NCBI GenBank assembly: GCA_015075305.1
Contig: JABTUS010000004.1
Span: forward strand, 1 to 64,000
Reading direction: 5' to 3'
Source of the DNA: Opitutaceae bacterium
Lineage (GTDB): Bacteria > Verrucomicrobiota > Verrucomicrobiia > Opitutales > Opitutaceae
Length of the DNA: 64,000 nucleotides
A program made the position numbers and the translations under genes. A model generated the notes under the pieces. The model searched no databases and was not told where the DNA came from. It saw nothing but the letters and a program-made list of their open reading frames with translations. Below, piece by piece: positions 4,700-11,139 of this stretch; within the stretch, counting starts at the first letter, position 1; each line of letters starts with the position of its first letter.

Positions 4700-6382
4700 A
4701 TGAACAACGCGGAGATCCTTTCGCTTGATCCGTATGATGCGCCTCCATCCTTCTGGAGTCGAAATGCCCATGCCCTGGCGGCGCTGGGTGTCTTTGCGGC
4801 AACAGTCCTATTGACTGTTGTTTCCTTCCCCCCCTGCAAGCTCCCGGAGGCCGGTTACGCCTTTGCGGTGCCGGCGATCTTCTGGGCCTACCGCAGGCCC
4901 TCCTGGAAACTCTATTCGCTGGTGGTCCTGGGCGCGTGCGTCGTTGCCTGGACACTGATTCTCTCCTGGCTTCACCATGTCTCGTGGATCGGGCTGCTCC
5001 TGCTTGGCCCGGTGATCGGGCTCTGGGTGGGATCGTGGTTTCTCGCGGTGCGGTGGACGATGCCGCAGCTGCTGGGCAGGCCGCCGCTGACCCGGATCCT
5101 GCTGGTGTTTGCTCTGGCTGCGCTGTGGGTGCTGAACGAATGGCTGCGGACGTGGCTCTTCTCCGGTTTTCCCTGGCTGCCGCTCGCGGCGAGTCAGTGG
5201 CAGCGCGTGAGCATCCTTCAGATTGCGGCATTCACCGGAGCGGGCGGGATTTCATTTGTGCTCATCGCGGTCAATCTCGGCTTCGGCGCCTATGCGCACC
5301 GGCTCCTCTGCGAAGGGAAACGAGGACTCAACCGGCGCAGCCAGGAATTTTTCGCCACCATGTTCCTGCTTGTTGTCTGCCTCAGCATTCAGATGCAGGA
5401 GACGATCAATCGCGGACAATACATCGTGGGCCTGGGAAAGGTGGCATTCGTCCAGCCCAACATTCCGTCGACGATCAAGTGGGACCCGGCGGAAGGTCCC
5501 GCGATAGTGGACACCCTGCAGACATTGACGCGACAGGCGGCGGCAAGCCGTCCCAACCTGATACTCTGGCCCGAGGCATGCACGCCTTGGGCGCTCAAGG
5601 GTGATGAGCAGACAAAAAACTGGACGGAGGAGCTGGTGGCTAAAGCGCGTGCCCCGCTCGTGCTGGGATCCCTTGCCATCGAGCATCCGGCCACACCTCA
5701 GGAGGCCTGGTACAATGCCGCGTTCCTGGTGGATCCTGTCAGCGGGGTTCAGCCGAATTACTACGCAAAACGGAAGCTTGTTCCCTTCGGGGAGTACGTT
5801 CCCTTCCGTCCCCTGCTCGGCTGGCTGCAGAAGGTCGTGCCGATCGGCAGCGATGATTTCATGCATGGGAGTGAACCCGGGCTCCTGCATACGACGCTGC
5901 GGAAGACCCCTGTTTCGATCGGTCCGTTGATCTGCTATGAGGATCTCTTTCCCCGATTGTCGCGGGAGAGTGTTCTGGCCGGCGCGGATCTGCTGGTGGT
6001 GATGACCAATGACGGCTGGTTTGGCGAGGATGGGGCGGCCTTCCAGCACGCGGCGCACAGCGTTCTCCGGGCGGTTGAGACGCGCCGTCCCGTGCTGCGC
6101 ATCGGCAACGGCGGATGGAGCGGATGGATTGACGAGTTCGGAGTCACAAAGGCCGTCGCGACCGATCCGGAACAGGGAATCTATTTCAAGGGGGTTCGCG
6201 TCGCGGAGGTGCAGCGGGATTTTCGCTGGGTGGGCAGGAAATCGTTCTACGTTCAGCACGGGGACTGGTTCGTCCTGTTCTGCGGCGTTCTAGTTGTTGG
6301 CGCGACTACCCTGCTGCGCATATCACCCAGGCCTGAGGCGGACGAATCGATCGCGGGGCCGGCTGATCCGCAAGATCCGTGA
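4700..6382 (+). CDS. lnt: Apolipoprotein N-acyltransferase
   Basis: An integral inner-membrane enzyme (560 residues) that adds the third acyl chain to the N-terminal cysteine of lipoproteins, the last step after Lgt and LspA. About six hydrophobic segments occupy the first ~230 residues, followed by a nitrilase-like catalytic domain. The Glu-Lys-Cys triad elements are visible as LILWPEACTPW, YAKRKLVPFGEYVPF and GPLICYEDLFP. A last membrane segment lies near the C-terminus (WFVLFCGVLVVGATTLL). GGAG about 5 bases before the ATG at 4700 supports the start. Its presence implies mature tri-acylated lipoproteins and a diderm envelope, consistent with lspA at 32.7 kb. Confidence 0.95.
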   Translation: MNNAEILSLDPYDAPPSFWSRNAHALAALGVFAATVLLTVVSFPPCKLPEAGYAFAVPAIFWAYRRPSWKLYSLVVLGACVVAWTLILSWLHHVSWIGLLLLGPVIGLWVGSWFLAVRWTMPQLLGRPPLTRILLVFALAALWVLNEWLRTWLFSGFPWLPLAASQWQRVSILQIAAFTGAGGISFVLIAVNLGFGAYAHRLLCEGKRGLNRRSQEFFATMFLLVVCLSIQMQETINRGQYIVGLGKVAFVQPNIPSTIKWDPAEGPAIVDTLQTLTRQAAASRPNLILWPEACTPWALKGDEQTKNWTEELVAKARAPLVLGSLAIEHPATPQEAWYNAAFLVDPVSGVQPNYYAKRKLVPFGEYVPFRPLLGWLQKVVPIGSDDFMHGSEPGLLHTTLRKTPVSIGPLICYEDLFPRLSRESVLAGADLLVVMTNDGWFGEDGAAFQHAAHSVLRAVETRRPVLRIGNGGWSGWIDEFGVTKAVATDPEQGIYFKGVRVAEVQRDFRWVGRKSFYVQHGDWFVLFCGVLVVGATTLLRISPRPEADESIAGPADPQDP

Positions 6383-6550
6383 TGGCAAGGTAGATTCATG
6401 GAGGATATGGTTCCCAGCGCCCGTCCACGCTCAGGCAGACTTCGATCCGGATGTCGCCAACTACGTTGATCGCTTGGTCGACTACCTGCCTGCGCGATTG
6501 AGGCGATGATCGGGTCTCGGGATGGTTGATACGACTGTTGACGGGCATGA

Positions 6551-6571
6551 CCCAAAGGTATTACCTTTGGG
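6551..6571 (+). promoter_or_regulatory. Perfect inverted repeat, likely AbrB/VapB operator
   Basis: Arms CCCAAAGGT and ACCTTTGGG are perfect reverse complements around a 3-base ATT centre. The site ends 2 bases before the proposed antitoxin ATG at 6574. AbrB-family antitoxins usually repress their own operon through such palindromes, so binding here would block transcription or early translation. Operator function is inferred from position and symmetry. Confidence 0.55.
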
Positions 6572-6573
6572 CC

Positions 6574-6807
6574 ATGGTAAGGACTACGATCACGAGCAAG
6601 GGGCAGACGACCGTGCCCGTGGAATTGCGCCGCATCTGGAAGACGTCCGGGGTGCTCTGGGAGGTTTGCGAGGACGGATCGGCGCGCGTGCGTCCTGCGC
6701 CGGACGTGATGACCTTGTTCGGGGCGGCAGGGGATGGAAGGGGCAGGGATCCCGACGAAATGGCGAAGGCTCGCCGGGCGATGGGGTGCCGAAAGCGGCG
6801 CACATGA
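6574..6807 (+). CDS. AbrB/VapB-type antitoxin
   Basis: A small protein of 77 residues whose N-terminus (TTITSKGQTTVPVELRRIW) is the classical swapped-hairpin AbrB/SpoVT DNA-binding motif. The rest (TSGVLWEVCEDGSARVRPAP) continues the domain, and the C-terminal ~25 residues would wrap and neutralise the toxin. The ATG at 6574 puts the motif at the N-terminus; starting further upstream would translate the palindrome. Its stop overlaps the toxin start by 4 bases (ATGA), typical of translational coupling in vapBC-like operons. The predicted role is repressor of its own operon and antidote to the PIN toxin. Confidence 0.85.
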   Translation: MVRTTITSKGQTTVPVELRRIWKTSGVLWEVCEDGSARVRPAPDVMTLFGAAGDGRGRDPDEMAKARRAMGCRKRRT

Positions 6808-7208
6808 AGCGGCTTCACGTCGATGCCAACGTGATCCTGCGGTTCCTTCGCAACGACGATGCGAAGCAATCGCCCCGGGCGAGGTCGCTCGTCGATTCAG
6901 CTCAGCGGGGTGAGACAATTCTGATCCTCTCTTCAACCACGCTGGCGGAGATATTCTACGCGCTGCGCGCATCCTATCGCATGTCCCGCACGGATGCGGC
7001 CGATCTATTGATCCGTTTGCTGCACACCGGTGTCTTTGAACTGGAGGACGAGAACCGTATGCTTGACGCACTCGCGCGAGTTGCGCGCGCCAATGTGGAT
7101 TTCGGAGACGCCCACCTGGCCGCCCTGGCCGTCTCGACTGGGGAGCCGATTGTGACCTTTGACCAGGACTTCAAGAAGTTTTCCGACGTCGTGATCCACG
7201 TGCCATGA
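6804..7208 (+). CDS. PIN-domain ribonuclease toxin (VapC-like)
   Basis: A 134-residue PIN-domain nuclease. The four acidic metal ligands are visible: Asp7 in LHVDANVIL, Glu49 in LAEIFYAL, Asp102 in FGDAHLAAL and Asp120 in VTFDQDF. VapC toxins cleave tRNA or rRNA with Mg2+ and stop translation when released from the antitoxin. The ATG overlaps the antitoxin stop, so the two are co-translated. All key residues are intact, so the toxin looks functional. The pair sits at the left end of an accessory island that also carries hipBA. Confidence 0.88.
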   Translation: MKRLHVDANVILRFLRNDDAKQSPRARSLVDSAQRGETILILSSTTLAEIFYALRASYRMSRTDAADLLIRLLHTGVFELEDENRMLDALARVARANVDFGDAHLAALAVSTGEPIVTFDQDFKKFSDVVIHVP

Positions 7209-7273
7209 TGCGGCTGCAGGTGATGGTTCTCAACTTGTCGATCATCCCGTCGATCGAAAGATCTGCAACTTTT

Positions 7274-7352
7274 GCTGCCGGGGCGGGAGTTGCTGAACCC
7301 GCGAAACGCCTAACCCGACTTGTGCGTGGTTGTCGATAGTCGTCACTGTGTG
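7274..7352. repeat. 79-bp imperfect direct repeat, copy A
   Basis: By hand alignment this matches 9647-9725 at 65 of 79 positions without gaps. Both copies contain the open tail LPGRELL..RNA followed by TAA, then the block GACTTGTGCGTGGTTGT. In copy B the downstream block forms the start of the DUF1080 gene; in copy A the ATG is lost and stops appear. Copy A therefore looks like a decayed duplicate. HipBA, the pglX stub and the sulfatase relic lie between the copies. The rest of the 300-base gap 7209-7508 holds only this repeat and the hipB control region. Confidence 0.7.
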
Positions 7353-7471
7353 CTCGCCCCCTCCGACGACTCCCACCCGCTGCGACGATCAAGGGGGAGC
7401 CGATTTCCCCCGGCGTCAGTTAGCGCTCCCTGCCAGGGAATGAGCATCGAAGCGGGTGTCAGATTAGATCG

Positions 7472-7520
7472 GGTATATCAGACGTAGGTTGACAAAACGT
7501 CAGGTATATTGGACGATAAA
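7472..7520 (+). promoter_or_regulatory. hipBA control region with two direct repeats
   Basis: Two copies of GGTATATnnGACG (7472-7484 and 7503-7515) are spaced 31 bases start to start, about three helical turns. That spacing suits cooperative binding by a HipB-type dimer. A perfect -35 hexamer TTGACA lies between them (7489-7494); the matching -10 is poor (GATAAA or GACGAT near 7512-7520). The second repeat overlaps the TTG start at 7509. Function is inferred from layout. Confidence 0.45.
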
Positions 7521-7838
7521 GCAGTGAGCCGCTCTCCTTCACTGCCACTTCCTGTCACCCACGCCCTGCGCAAGCTGGGCCGGGAACTCGCTTTGGCCCG
7601 GCGCAAGCGCGGGATATCGACCCGGGACATGGCGGACCGGCTCTTCGTGAGCCGCGACACCCTGTGGCGCATGGAACGAGGCGATCCCACCGTGGCCGCT
7701 GGCACGCTGGCGACGGCCGCATTCGTGCTCCAACTGCATGACCGGCTGGCCAACCTGGCCGCTCCGGGTGACGACGTGCTCGGACTGAGCCTCGATGAGC
7801 AGCGCCTGCCCAAGCGTATTCGGCGTCCCCGGGCATGA
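7509..7838 (+). CDS. hipB: HipB-like HTH antitoxin/repressor
   Basis: A protein of up to 109 residues with a Cro/C1-type helix-turn-helix (ELALARRKRGISTRDMADRLFVSRDTLWRMERGDPTV is the region, about residues 25-60). This is the usual HipB fold, which binds operators upstream and neutralises HipA. The start is uncertain. TTG at 7509 lies within a presumed operator repeat, and GTG at 7524 is an equally good choice that would make the mRNA nearly leaderless from the TTGACA promoter. The C-terminal tail ends in a basic KRIRRPRA. The stop overlaps hipA by 4 bases. Confidence 0.85.
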   Translation: MDDKAVSRSPSLPLPVTHALRKLGRELALARRKRGISTRDMADRLFVSRDTLWRMERGDPTVAAGTLATAAFVLQLHDRLANLAAPGDDVLGLSLDEQRLPKRIRRPRA

Positions 7839-9073
7839 GCATCGAGGTGCACATCGACTGGCAGGGCGTGACACATCCCGTGGGGCGGCTGCACACGGCG
7901 GAGCGCAACGCCGCAGTGACATTTGAGTATGACCGCGAATGGCTGGCTCGTGCCGGCGCGTTTTCGATTGATCCCACCAGTCTGCCGCTGGGCTCCGGCC
8001 CGATTCACGGCGCCTCGCTGTTCGGCGCGATGCAGGACAGCGGTCCGGACCGCTGGGGCCGGATCCTGATCGAGCGGGCCGTTCGCAAACGCATCTTGGT
8101 GCGAAAGCCCTACCGCGATATTGATTGCGTCCTCGCGCTCGACGACACGGCCCGCATCGGCGCCTTGCGGTTCCGCACCGAGCCTGCGGGACCCTTCCGC
8201 GCCGCGACCGCCGGCAAGCTGCCGCCCCTCGTGAGCCTGGCCGTGCTGCTGCGGGCCGCCGACGCCATCCACGGTGAAACCGAAACCGCCGCCGACCTCC
8301 GGTTTCTGCTCGGCGCCGGCTCGCCGCTCGGGGGCGCCCGCCCCAAGGCAGCGGTGACCCTGGAAGACGGCCGGCTGGCCATGGCCAAATTTCCCAAGCC
8401 CGACGACGTGCGTGACATCGCGGCCGGTGAAGTGCTCGCCCTCCACTTGGCGGGACTCGCCGGCATCAACGTGGCTGAATCCCGGCTAGTCACGGCAGGT
8501 GGGCGCGGCGTGTCGGTCCTGACCCGCTTTGATCGCGTCGGTGCGCACCGCCTTCCCTTTCTTTCTGCGAACAGCCTGCTCGGGTTGCTGCACGGCGAGC
8601 CCGGCGCCTACACGCTTCTCGCCGACGGCATCCGCCAGTTCGGTGACAACGTGGCCGGCGATCTCCGCGAACTCTGGCGACGCCTGGTGTTTTCGCTGCT
8701 TGCGAGCAACTATGACGACCACCTCCGCAACCACGGCTTCCTGATGCGCACCGCGGGCAAGTGGTCGCTCTCGCCAGCCTATGACCTGAACCCGGTGACT
8801 GAAATCGAGCGCGCCCAGATGCCCAAGACCGCCATCTCTGAGGACAACCCCGACTCCAGCATTGAGGCCGCCATGGAGGCTGCGCCGCGCTTCGGCCTGA
8901 AGCCGGCCGCCGCGAAAGCCATCGTCCGCGAAGTGCACGCCGCCGTAGCCGGCTGGCGCACGACTGCGAAGAAACTGCGCCTCCCGGCCCGCACCCTCGA
9001 CGCATACGCCTCGGCCTTTGAGCATCCACTGATGGCGGAGGCTGCCCGACTCCGCAGAACCTTCCCCCTGTGA
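7835..9073 (+). CDS. hipA: HipA-type serine/threonine kinase toxin
   Basis: A 412-residue HipA-family kinase; in E. coli HipA phosphorylates glutamyl-tRNA synthetase and induces persistence. It has an N-terminal HipA_N region followed by the kinase core. Visible are the Gly-rich loop GGARPKA, ATP-binding Lys185 in AKFPK, catalytic-loop Asp295 in NYDDHLRNHGF and metal-binding Asp317 in SPAYDLNP. All catalytic residues are present, so it should be active. The ATG overlaps the hipB stop (ATGA). Its own stop overlaps the next small reading frame by 4 bases (GTGA). The actual substrate cannot be told from sequence. Confidence 0.92.
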   Translation: MSIEVHIDWQGVTHPVGRLHTAERNAAVTFEYDREWLARAGAFSIDPTSLPLGSGPIHGASLFGAMQDSGPDRWGRILIERAVRKRILVRKPYRDIDCVLALDDTARIGALRFRTEPAGPFRAATAGKLPPLVSLAVLLRAADAIHGETETAADLRFLLGAGSPLGGARPKAAVTLEDGRLAMAKFPKPDDVRDIAAGEVLALHLAGLAGINVAESRLVTAGGRGVSVLTRFDRVGAHRLPFLSANSLLGLLHGEPGAYTLLADGIRQFGDNVAGDLRELWRRLVFSLLASNYDDHLRNHGFLMRTAGKWSLSPAYDLNPVTEIERAQMPKTAISEDNPDSSIEAAMEAAPRFGLKPAAAKAIVREVHAAVAGWRTTAKKLRLPARTLDAYASAFEHPLMAEAARLRRTFPL

Positions 9074-9258
9074 TTGATTCTCCGCTCCCGCTCGCAGTCC
9101 TCAAGGCTGAGGTGGGCAAGCTTGAAGACGACCTGCGGGCGCGATGCGAGGCGGACGCCGTAGATGGTGCGCCGCTGCAGGCACAGTATGAGGCGAGCTG
9201 GGTCCGCTCCCTGATGCTGAGCGCCACTCGGGTGATCGCTGTCGTTGCGCACGCATAA
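9070..9258 (+). pseudogene. Short stub resembling the N-terminus of BREX-type PglX methyltransferase
   Basis: A 62-codon frame opens with GTG overlapping the hipA stop (GTGA). Residues 8-45 (LAVLKAEVGKLEDDLRAR ... LQAQYEASW) recall the start of BREX-2 PglX adenine methyltransferases, which in my memory read LKxxVxxLEDDLRERV-[D/E]AxP...LRAEYxAA. The similarity then stops and the frame ends after an unrelated hydrophobic run. I read it as the 5' remnant of a pglX gene that once followed hipA, with the other ~1100 codons deleted. It could instead be an unrelated small protein; no other BREX genes are present. Confidence 0.45.
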
Positions 9259-9322
9259 AAGTGGATTGATGAAGTTTCTGTCTTTCGCTTGAAGTCGCAC
9301 CCCGGGAGAATCGTGGCGAATC

Positions 9323-9590
9323 ATGTCTGCGCGAGCGTCCTCGAATGTCATGAAATGCCTCATTCCGCTCGTTGCTGCAGTATTGATCATCCTGGCTGTT
9401 GATTCTTCATCCGCCCGCGCACGGTCAGCCCAGGGCGGAGGCGCATGATCCTCCCTTGCTCTTCGATCTTGGCTCAGATCCTGGCGAACAGTTTGACATC
9501 GCTTCGCAGCATCCCGACATCCTGGAAAAGATCCGGGCCGCTGTTGCGGCTCATCAACAGGCGATGATTCCGGGTAAGCCTCAGCTCTAG
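9323..9590 (+). pseudogene. Internally deleted arylsulfatase (signal peptide plus C-terminal tail)
   Basis: The frame from ATG 9323 (or 9350) encodes a clear signal peptide (MKCLIPLVAAVLIILAV, then SSARA) and ends at a stop at 9448. In the +1 frame, about 9425-9590 encodes the characteristic sulfatase C-terminus: EAHDPPLLFDLGSDPGEQFD, then IASQHPDILEKI and a stop. The catalytic middle, including the CxPSR formylglycine motif, is absent. I infer an internal deletion of roughly 1.2 kb or more with a frame change. Sulfatases of this kind desulfate glycans in the periplasm. No other gene is visible in the 9259-9678 gap. Confidence 0.65.
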
Positions 9591-9646
9591 AAATTTGCGA
9601 AGGTCGAAAGCGGCCAGGTATCACGGCCACTGCATTTGCCGCTTGC

Positions 9647-9725
9647 GCTGCCGGGACGGGAGTTGCTGGATCTGCGAAATGCCTAAGATGACTTGTGCGT
9701 GGTTGTGGACTGCCGTCGGTGTGTG
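9647..9725. repeat. 79-bp imperfect direct repeat, copy B
   Basis: Partner of copy A at 7274-7352 (65/79 identical by eye). It overlaps the end of a short open tail (LHLPLALPGRELLDLRNA, stop at 9683-9685) and the first codons of the DUF1080 gene. It marks the right edge of the hipBA/pglX/sulfatase segment. Confidence 0.7.
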
Positions 9726-11139
9726 CATCACTTCAATCTCTGTCTCCGGGGCGGTTTTCAGCGGCAATGCGGAGTTGAACCAGCTTGCGGATTTCAAGTC
9801 CGCCGGCTCCAACTGGAGCGAAGCCGGCGGCCTGGCGGGAGATCCACGCGAAGAAGGGGGATTCATCGCCCGCGCCGGGAAGGGTGTGATCGTGAATCAA
9901 CCCAGTGAGGCGGCCCGTTCCGATCTTTACACTGAGTGGGAGCACGCAGACATGGAGTTTGAAGGTGATTTCCTCCTTCCCAAGGGATCGAATTCGGGAG
10001 TCTATTTCATGGGCAGGTATGAGATCCAGCTGTTTGACAGCTGGGGCAGACGCACGCCCGGCGTTCAGGATCTCGGTGCCGTCTATCCGCGCTGGGATGG
10101 AACGCGAGGCAAGGGCCGGGAAAGTTTTGACGGAGTTGCACCGCTGGCGAATGCGGCGAGGGCGCCCGGCCTCTGGCAGCACCTGCGTGTGGTTTTTCGA
10201 GCGCCGCGATTTGACGGGCAGGGCCGGAAGGTGGAGAACGCGCGCTTTACGCTCGTCGAAGTGAACGGGTTTCCGGTGCAGGTCGACGCTGTTGCCACCG
10301 GACCGACGCGGGCCAGCCACTTCAAGACTGAAGCGCCGTTTGGTCCGCTGATGATTCAAGGCAGCCATGGCCCGGTGGCCTTCCGCGGTCTGCGATGCAC
10401 CGTGCCGAAGGCGTCTGCGGCGGTCTCAAACGGAAAACGCGGGCGCTCCGCGACGACTCCGATCATTCTTGAGGTCGGAGATCACGTGAGGATTCAGCGT
10501 GGGTTCGTGCCCTTTCAGCCTTACAAGCGCCTTTACGCCTGCTCGGTGGGGACACCGGAAGGAGGGAACTATGCCTACGATACCGAATCGTTTTCGGTGC
10601 TCCGTGTCTGGCGGGGTGGATTTGTCGACACGAGTGAAATGTGGGAGGACCGTGGGACCAGTCAGCTCGCCAAACCCGCAGGCCCCTTTCTGACCCTGAG
10701 TGGAGCTCCTGGCATCGCATTGATTGAGACGCCTGAATCTGACGGCTGGCCGACTGACCCCAGTCCCTTGTATGGGTTTGATGGATACCGGCTTGAGACG
10801 GACGGAACCCCGGTTTTCAGGGCACACCTCGCCGATTTGCGCCTGACGGATCGTGTGGCTCCCGCAAAGGAAGGAACCGGGCTGACACGCACGGTGCGGT
10901 GTGAAGGAAGGCTCCCCGGATGGAGCTGCTTTCTCCTTCTCGCGGAGTCCGATCAGATCACACCCGCGCCAGCTGGACGATCCGGTTTCATTGTGGGAGA
11001 TCGCGAGTGGTATGTCGATTTTCCAACCGGGACAGAGCACACCCCGCTTGTTCTGTCACGCGGCGGCCGGCAATGGCTGGTGGTGCCGCTGACCAAGGAC
11101 ACTTTGGACAAACCCGTTTCCTACACGCTCGTCTGGTAA
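9679..11139 (+). CDS. Secreted DUF1080 (3-keto-disaccharide hydrolase-like) protein
   Basis: A 486-residue protein with an N-terminal signal peptide (hydrophobic AWLWTAVGVCITSISVSGA). Residues ~50-235 form a DUF1080/LamG-like beta-sandwich with the usual landmarks: SDLYTEWEHADMEFEGDFLL, GSNSGVYFMGRYEIQLFDSW, APGLWQHLRVVFRAP and PFGPLMIQGSHGPVAFRGLR. DUF1080 enzymes are known to hydrolyse 3-keto-glucosides. The C-terminal ~240 residues are rich in beta strands and I cannot assign them; a DUF6797-like domain, common in PVC bacteria, is possible. The ATG at 9679 lies within repeat copy B; ATG 9688 is an alternative start. The next gene follows after 8 bases, so the two form an operon. Confidence 0.85.
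   Translation: MPKMTCAWLWTAVGVCITSISVSGAVFSGNAELNQLADFKSAGSNWSEAGGLAGDPREEGGFIARAGKGVIVNQPSEAARSDLYTEWEHADMEFEGDFLLPKGSNSGVYFMGRYEIQLFDSWGRRTPGVQDLGAVYPRWDGTRGKGRESFDGVAPLANAARAPGLWQHLRVVFRAPRFDGQGRKVENARFTLVEVNGFPVQVDAVATGPTRASHFKTEAPFGPLMIQGSHGPVAFRGLRCTVPKASAAVSNGKRGRSATTPIILEVGDHVRIQRGFVPFQPYKRLYACSVGTPEGGNYAYDTESFSVLRVWRGGFVDTSEMWEDRGTSQLAKPAGPFLTLSGAPGIALIETPESDGWPTDPSPLYGFDGYRLETDGTPVFRAHLADLRLTDRVAPAKEGTGLTRTVRCEGRLPGWSCFLLLAESDQITPAPAGRSGFIVGDREWYVDFPTGTEHTPLVLSRGGRQWLVVPLTKDTLDKPVSYTLVW

Follow-up and report, generated by a model that had tools for sequence, protein, structure and literature searches.

A 62-codon open reading frame directly behind a hipA toxin gene in an Opitutaceae bacterium starts with the N-terminus of PglX, the adenine methyltransferase of BREX-2 (Pgl) systems. 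The window is the whole stretch of 64,000 nucleotides that was analysed, and all positions refer to it. The frame (9070..9258, forward strand, GTG start) consists of two parts: 46 codons related to pglX (9070..9207) and a tail unrelated to PglX that runs to a TAA (9208..9258). The first part is very probably the 5′ stub of a BREX-2 pglX gene, now dead, whose remaining part was lost by deletion or rearrangement. The initial annotation had described a GTG-started frame that overlaps the hipA stop, resembles about the first 45 residues of a BREX-2 PglX and then ends. The frame is present as claimed, it shares 4 nt with hipA (GTGA, 9070-9073; the hipA stop TGA occupies 9071-9073), and the description of its content was accurate, the homology reaching residue 46 and the last 16 codons being foreign to PglX.

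The pglX stub and the end of its homology

Family libraries give faint matches to the N-terminus. The PADLOC PglX profile aligns with residues 1-43 of the stub at profile positions 1-43, i.e. in register (E 0.023). The NCBIfam model BREX_2_MTaseX (NF033451) aligns its positions 3-38 of 1185 with residues 8-43 (E 0.086; 10.5 bits, for a family cut-off of 400 bits). The stub is not listed when this model is run over the whole genome of the bacterium, and neither the stub nor any other frame of that genome gives a full-length match above 400 bits. Pfam (E 1) and PHROGs (E 0.1) contain no match to the 62 residues.

These library values would be insufficient by themselves. The assignment to PglX follows from two close relatives. 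In a genome of the same family (G064), a PglX of 1246 aa, encoded by an open frame of 1248 codons, is 52% identical to the stub over stub residues 2-47 (E 2.0e-8). It is the best match among the 149 other genomes of the family that were searched with the 62-mer (150 with the source genome included), the runner-up having an E value of 0.006. A search of 387 genomes of the phylum (E ≤1e-3) returned three matches: the source genome itself, G064 (55%, E 3.3e-8) and G292, a genome of the same order whose full-length PglX is 53% identical to the stub (E 2.2e-6). When the stub is aligned in translation with the G064 protein, the score is 116, compared with a mean of 29 and a maximum of 50 in 200 codon-shuffled controls. 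From these comparisons, the first 46 codons are taken to encode a true BREX-2 PglX N-terminus. The protein search against PglX families that the initial annotation had proposed thus yielded N-terminal matches, weak in the libraries and strong in G064 and G292, and its reading of the frame as a remnant of a BREX-2-type pglX is borne out by these two genomes. The 62-mer has no significant match in six of the nine other genomes listed for the genus and none in a viral contig collection or a plasmid collection.

Identical residues are frequently encoded by different codons (12 of 24 in the comparison with G064, 15 of 23 with G292). These synonymous differences fit past selection on the stub and are silent on when that selection ended. 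A single copy of the junction is known, so that its decay is not datable and selection on so short a frame is not measurable.

The homology ends abruptly. A frameshift-tolerant alignment to PglX covers residues 2-46 (9070-9207) and nothing further, by which a continuation of PglX past codon 46 in other frames was rejected. PglX residues 45-300 score 30 against 9208-9640, a value equalled or exceeded by 46 of 60 shuffles; for residues 45-160 the score is 28, which 37 of 60 shuffles attain. The GC content falls from 68% (hipBA) and 66% (stub) to 53% over 9208-9400, the window as a whole having 61%. The end of the alignment and the drop in GC identify 9207 as the breakpoint and the last 16 codons as derived from other DNA. 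The frame is readable over 62 codons today only because the first in-frame stop of this unrelated downstream DNA lies 17 codons on. Compared with a BREX-2 PglX, whose N-terminus its first 46 residues match in register, the stub lacks more than 1,150 of about 1,200-1,250 residues, including the entire methyltransferase domain. The nearly invariant PglX block at residues 233-244 lies far past codon 46; since the frame ends well ahead of this block, no methyltransferase domain is encoded.

The NCBIfam PglX model finds 11 matches in the source genome, all partial (best, 52 bits, E 3.3e-14). They lie in frames of 835-1435 aa, begin no earlier than model position 190 and stay below the 400-bit cut-off. 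The G064 protein matches five places in this genome, the stub being the best and the others lying in the same frames of 835-1435 aa. A second PglX piece akin to the stub elsewhere in the genome was therefore rejected, the other matches being partial and below the cut-off. A single PglY query, run without positive control, had no match in the genome, and neither PglW nor PglY was found below E 0.05 in the window. A locus that unites pglW, pglX, pglY and pglZ is not seen here, PglW and PglY being the components searched in the window.

The hipBA pair and the surroundings of the junction

In the HipBA family, HipA is a serine/threonine kinase, and HipB is its repressor and antitoxin. In the window, hipB (7509..7838, forward strand; TTG start at 7509, possible GTG start at 7524; HTH_31, E 1.1e-8) directly precedes hipA (7835..9073, forward strand; 412 aa; HipA_C, E 5.3e-45; Couple_hipA, E 8.9e-8). 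An HTH antitoxin gene followed by a Couple_hipA and HipA_C gene is the common layout of HipBA type II toxin-antitoxin (TA) modules. Chains of solved HipBA modules (HipA, 3tpd and 2wiu; HipT(Lp), 8ezr) match at E 3.3e-6 to 9.7e-6. The only oddity of the pair, in comparison with these modules, is its 3′ neighbour, the pglX stub. A close HipA relative (G454) is 65% identical and its HipB 69% identical; no PglX was found within 1.5 kb behind this hipA, so that hipBA of this type also stands alone.

Two putative HipB operator copies were found by pattern scan, GGTATATCAGACG (7472..7484, forward strand) and GGTATATTGGACG (7503..7515, forward strand). The pattern GGTATATNNGACG, picked post hoc, matches the window twice, before or at the hipB start, and has no match in 100 shuffles; these repeats are perhaps HipB operators. 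A consensus scan of 7200-9700 found no sigma-70-like promoter ahead of hipB. It returned one sigma-70-like site on the minus strand (7233-7205) and one terminator-like site (9437-9454), fewer than the shuffle average. The scan counts neither for nor against. Judged from its sequence, hipBA appears to be a normal TA pair of type II, with autoregulation, that would work without the stub.

The stretch that contains the pair is specific to this genome in comparison with two genomes of the same genus (G055 and G082). There, a 3-keto-disaccharide-hydrolase-like gene has different upstream neighbours, and the gene that follows lnt differs from that of the window. The window gene ending at 6382 is taken to be lnt, as named from its sequence. 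Because the neighbours differ at both places, the interval between lnt and the hydrolase-like gene (from 6383 on) is a junction absent from G055 and G082. From its annotated content, it appears to be made of scraps and two TA-like pairs. One scrap is a sulfatase C-terminal remnant (9426..9590, forward strand; 54 aa matched; Pfam Sulfatase_C, E 2.1e-13, profile positions 47-103 of 127) without catalytic body. The TA-like pair upstream of hipBA (6526-7208) consists of a small frame that weakly matches PrlF/MazE-type families (E 0.05 and 0.08) and, after it, a PIN-domain frame (E 5.5e-14).

A direct repeat of 93 nt (80% identity, spacing 2373) flanks hipBA and the stub. The upstream copy lies at 7261..7353 and the downstream copy at 9634..9726, both on the forward strand. 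At E 1 the genome has these two full copies and no other. The repeat was considered as the end of a mobile element and rejected: in G055 and G082, it is the 5′ end of the hydrolase-like gene to which the downstream copy aligns, and in the window this copy forms the start of that gene. The upstream copy is therefore better read as a partial duplication of that 5′ end.

Genes beside pglX and behind hipA in other genomes

Besides the remnant, the initial annotation had proposed that hipBA once formed an operon with pglX and that an intact HipBA-PglX cassette might exist elsewhere. The remnant stands. The cassette found no counterpart in the neighbourhoods read on either side, i.e. among 11 pglX loci and 28 hipA loci, a sample too small to decide against it.

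The gene directly before pglX was read in 11 loci. It is pglW or presumed pglW in seven, another gene in four and hipA in none. The pglW gene directly precedes full-length pglX in G064 (where a frame of 1260 aa behind pglX is taken to be pglY) and in G292. In G449 it lies 428 nt before pglX, with no frame of at least 150 aa between them. It also precedes pglX in Azospirillum, in Sphaerotilus (pglW split) and in one viral contig. In Rhodococcus, the preceding gene is annotated as a serine/threonine kinase and presumably is pglW. The four other loci are diverse. The BREX-2 locus on a plasmid of Candidatus Thiodictyon syntrophicum (pTs417, L107) has a TA pair between pglW and pglX (5196-5742), made up of a CopG-family gene and a toxin gene of the PemK/MazF family. 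An ATPase gene directly precedes pglX in Polaromonas, and three genes precede it in Streptomyces NBC_01334. In an Akkermansiaceae contig, a Shedu SduA gene directly precedes pglX, and the 4 kb read there show no pglW. Two loci, of G351 (L074) and G043 (L113), were left out of the 11; their PglX matches start at model positions 358 and 295. From these arrangements, the gap between pglW and pglX seems to be a place where accessory defence genes settle. Original adjacency of hipBA and pglX inside a BREX-2 locus is possible, as hipBA could once have preceded pglX in the way other modules do, including the MazF-type TA pair and the Shedu gene.

A HipA profile (30 sequences, that of the window included) applied to 16 PglX-bearing stretches of 13 loci and to window positions 7001-10000 recovered only the gene of the window. 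Full PglX matches 17 plasmid records, 6 of which cover at least 80% of the query; no HipA was found in the six plasmid stretches around those genes. No phage matches full PglX at E 1e-20, and a PglX alignment finds one viral contig, which has pglW upstream. A PglX N-terminal alignment in the genome contig scan finds two loci, one of which is that of G292. In the phylum sample (387 genomes), PglX is matched at E 1e-30 in 4 genomes, with three of the matches over the family cut-off. In the order sample, 3 of 372 genomes have a match at E 1e-60, with one addition, a partial PglX in G043. The pglX gene is in two pieces in two plasmids (L107, 6001-10157; L108, 6001-9791), so that broken pglX occurs elsewhere too.

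HipA has a match at E 1e-20 or better in 77 of the 387 genomes (76 without the source genome). The best-scoring 29 loci of other genomes were read. One of them (L059) was excluded as the contig ends before the hipA stop, and 28 were kept; the DNA available behind the hipA stop is at most about 1.5 kb, and 184 nt in one case. In none of these 28 does PglX or a homologue of the stub follow hipA. The stand-alone 62-residue homologue behind hipA that had been named as evidence against the remnant is thus absent from these loci, as is an intact pair of hipBA and full pglX. As judged by eye from their places, no listed HipA match is adjacent to any of the four PglX matches in the phylum sample. G449 and G351 carry both PglX and HipA matches, on different contigs.

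Origin and meaning of the junction

According to the preferred reading of a dead pglX stub, a BREX-2 locus, or part of one, would formerly have lain immediately downstream of the present hipA end. A deletion or rearrangement would have spared the pglX start codon and the first 46 codons and taken all that followed. The product of the stub, if translated by coupling to hipA, would lack the methyltransferase domain and is expected to be inert.

Two readings make the frame something other than a dead stub. Chance resemblance to PglX would agree with the weak library matches. It is already contradicted by two full-length PglX proteins that match in register from the start (E 2e-8 and 2.2e-6) and by an alignment score attained by none of the 200 codon shuffles, and is left with a vanishingly small probability. 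It is very improbable, too, that the 62 residues form a functional third component of hipBA, i.e. a small regulator or antitoxin recruited from PglX. The start-stop overlap hints at coupled translation, as such a component might require. Against this stand the lack of a homologue after hipA in the 28 relatives read (among the best 29), a C-terminus whose 16 residues are unrelated to PglX and the lack of a Pfam or PHROGs family match for the frame as a whole.

The abutment of hipA and pglX can itself be explained in two ways, both of which are variants of the dead-stub explanation. hipBA may have resided between pglW and pglX in a BREX-2 locus, translationally coupled to pglX through GTGA, pglX and the rest having been deleted later. 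Alternatively, illegitimate recombination may by chance have placed the pglX leader and start behind the 3′ end of an unrelated hipBA; HipA, its own stop lost, would then read a few codons of pglX leader up to the TGA within an NTGATT-form start. As the start itself would supply this TGA, the overlap would be functionally meaningless. The hipA end lies exactly at the pglX start, a coincidence that should be rare from two independent random breakpoints; a chance join requires one breakpoint a few codons from the native hipA stop and the other about 20 nt or less from the pglX start. It can be reasoned, on the other side, that an NTGATT-form start gives a stop in one of three frames. A tenant of the gap would agree with the 4 of 11 readable loci in which genes other than pglW immediately precede pglX (a TA pair, an ATPase gene, three genes and SduA) and with a GC content that is similar in hipBA and the stub and above that of the window. 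But no intact hipBA-pglX pair occurs in the 11 pglX loci or the 28 HipA loci (of the best 29), PglX is absent from the 1.5 kb behind the 65% identical HipA of G454 and no pglW remnant was found in the window. A chance join suits a region that is a junction of scraps. It would also account for the HipA tail, which has 15 residues after AFEH in the window and 7-12 in the 11 AFEH-bearing relatives among the best 29 loci, and for the last hipA codons (ACCTTCCCCCT before GTG), which are like the leader ends, rich in pyrimidines, of the four pglX genes read from Verrucomicrobiota (e.g. GACTCCC, CTTTTCC and TTTTTCCC before ATG). Both signs, however, are weak and post hoc, and among four other leaders, a pyrimidine-rich end is lacking in Polaromonas, Thiodictyon and Sphaerotilus at the least. 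The signs being weak both ways, the analysis leans slightly towards the later join, whose truth is evenly poised, over original adjacency, which is held as a tentative possibility.

Reports on BREX and hipBA provide some context. According to the accessible part of PMC12839542, auxiliary effectors, including PIN and HEPN RNases, are located within or next to the BREX core genes; HipA is not mentioned in the accessible main text, and in the window, unlike in these systems, the BREX core is gone. SXT/R391 ICEs carry hipAB and BREX on one mobile element. The consulted portion of PMC7251087 places HipA in VR1 and BREX in HS5, i.e. in separate regions, and names pglX as BREX-1, and that of PMC7606855 places hipAB in VRI of ICEs that also carry BREX genes. 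hipA/B and pglX are likewise reported on a single plasmid, in different numbered regions, in the available section of PMC6863613. As far as the open-licence PMC literature was covered by excerpts, it contains no description of hipBA adjoining pglX. PglX is the toxic part of the Pgl system and is checked by PglZ, according to the part of a Pgl review that was available (PMC11676413).

A broader proposal is that the pglW-pglX gap is a slot for TA or effector modules, that hipBA was one of its tenants and that the stub is the scar. HipBA may then have been a guard coupled to PglX, released once the methyltransferase operon was lost or hit, and have outlived the lost BREX-2 system. As a whole this is rather unlikely. 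The stub, for its part, is a pseudogene scrap, which suggests that the lineage once had a BREX-2-type pglX, a gene rare in its phylum. It hints at a lost link between hipBA and BREX, without proving one. The idea that TA modules take up residence between pglW and pglX is a testable lead. If this reading is true, HipA kinases would join the BREX-associated effectors, and there would be a testable reason for the presence of TA modules beside BREX genes.
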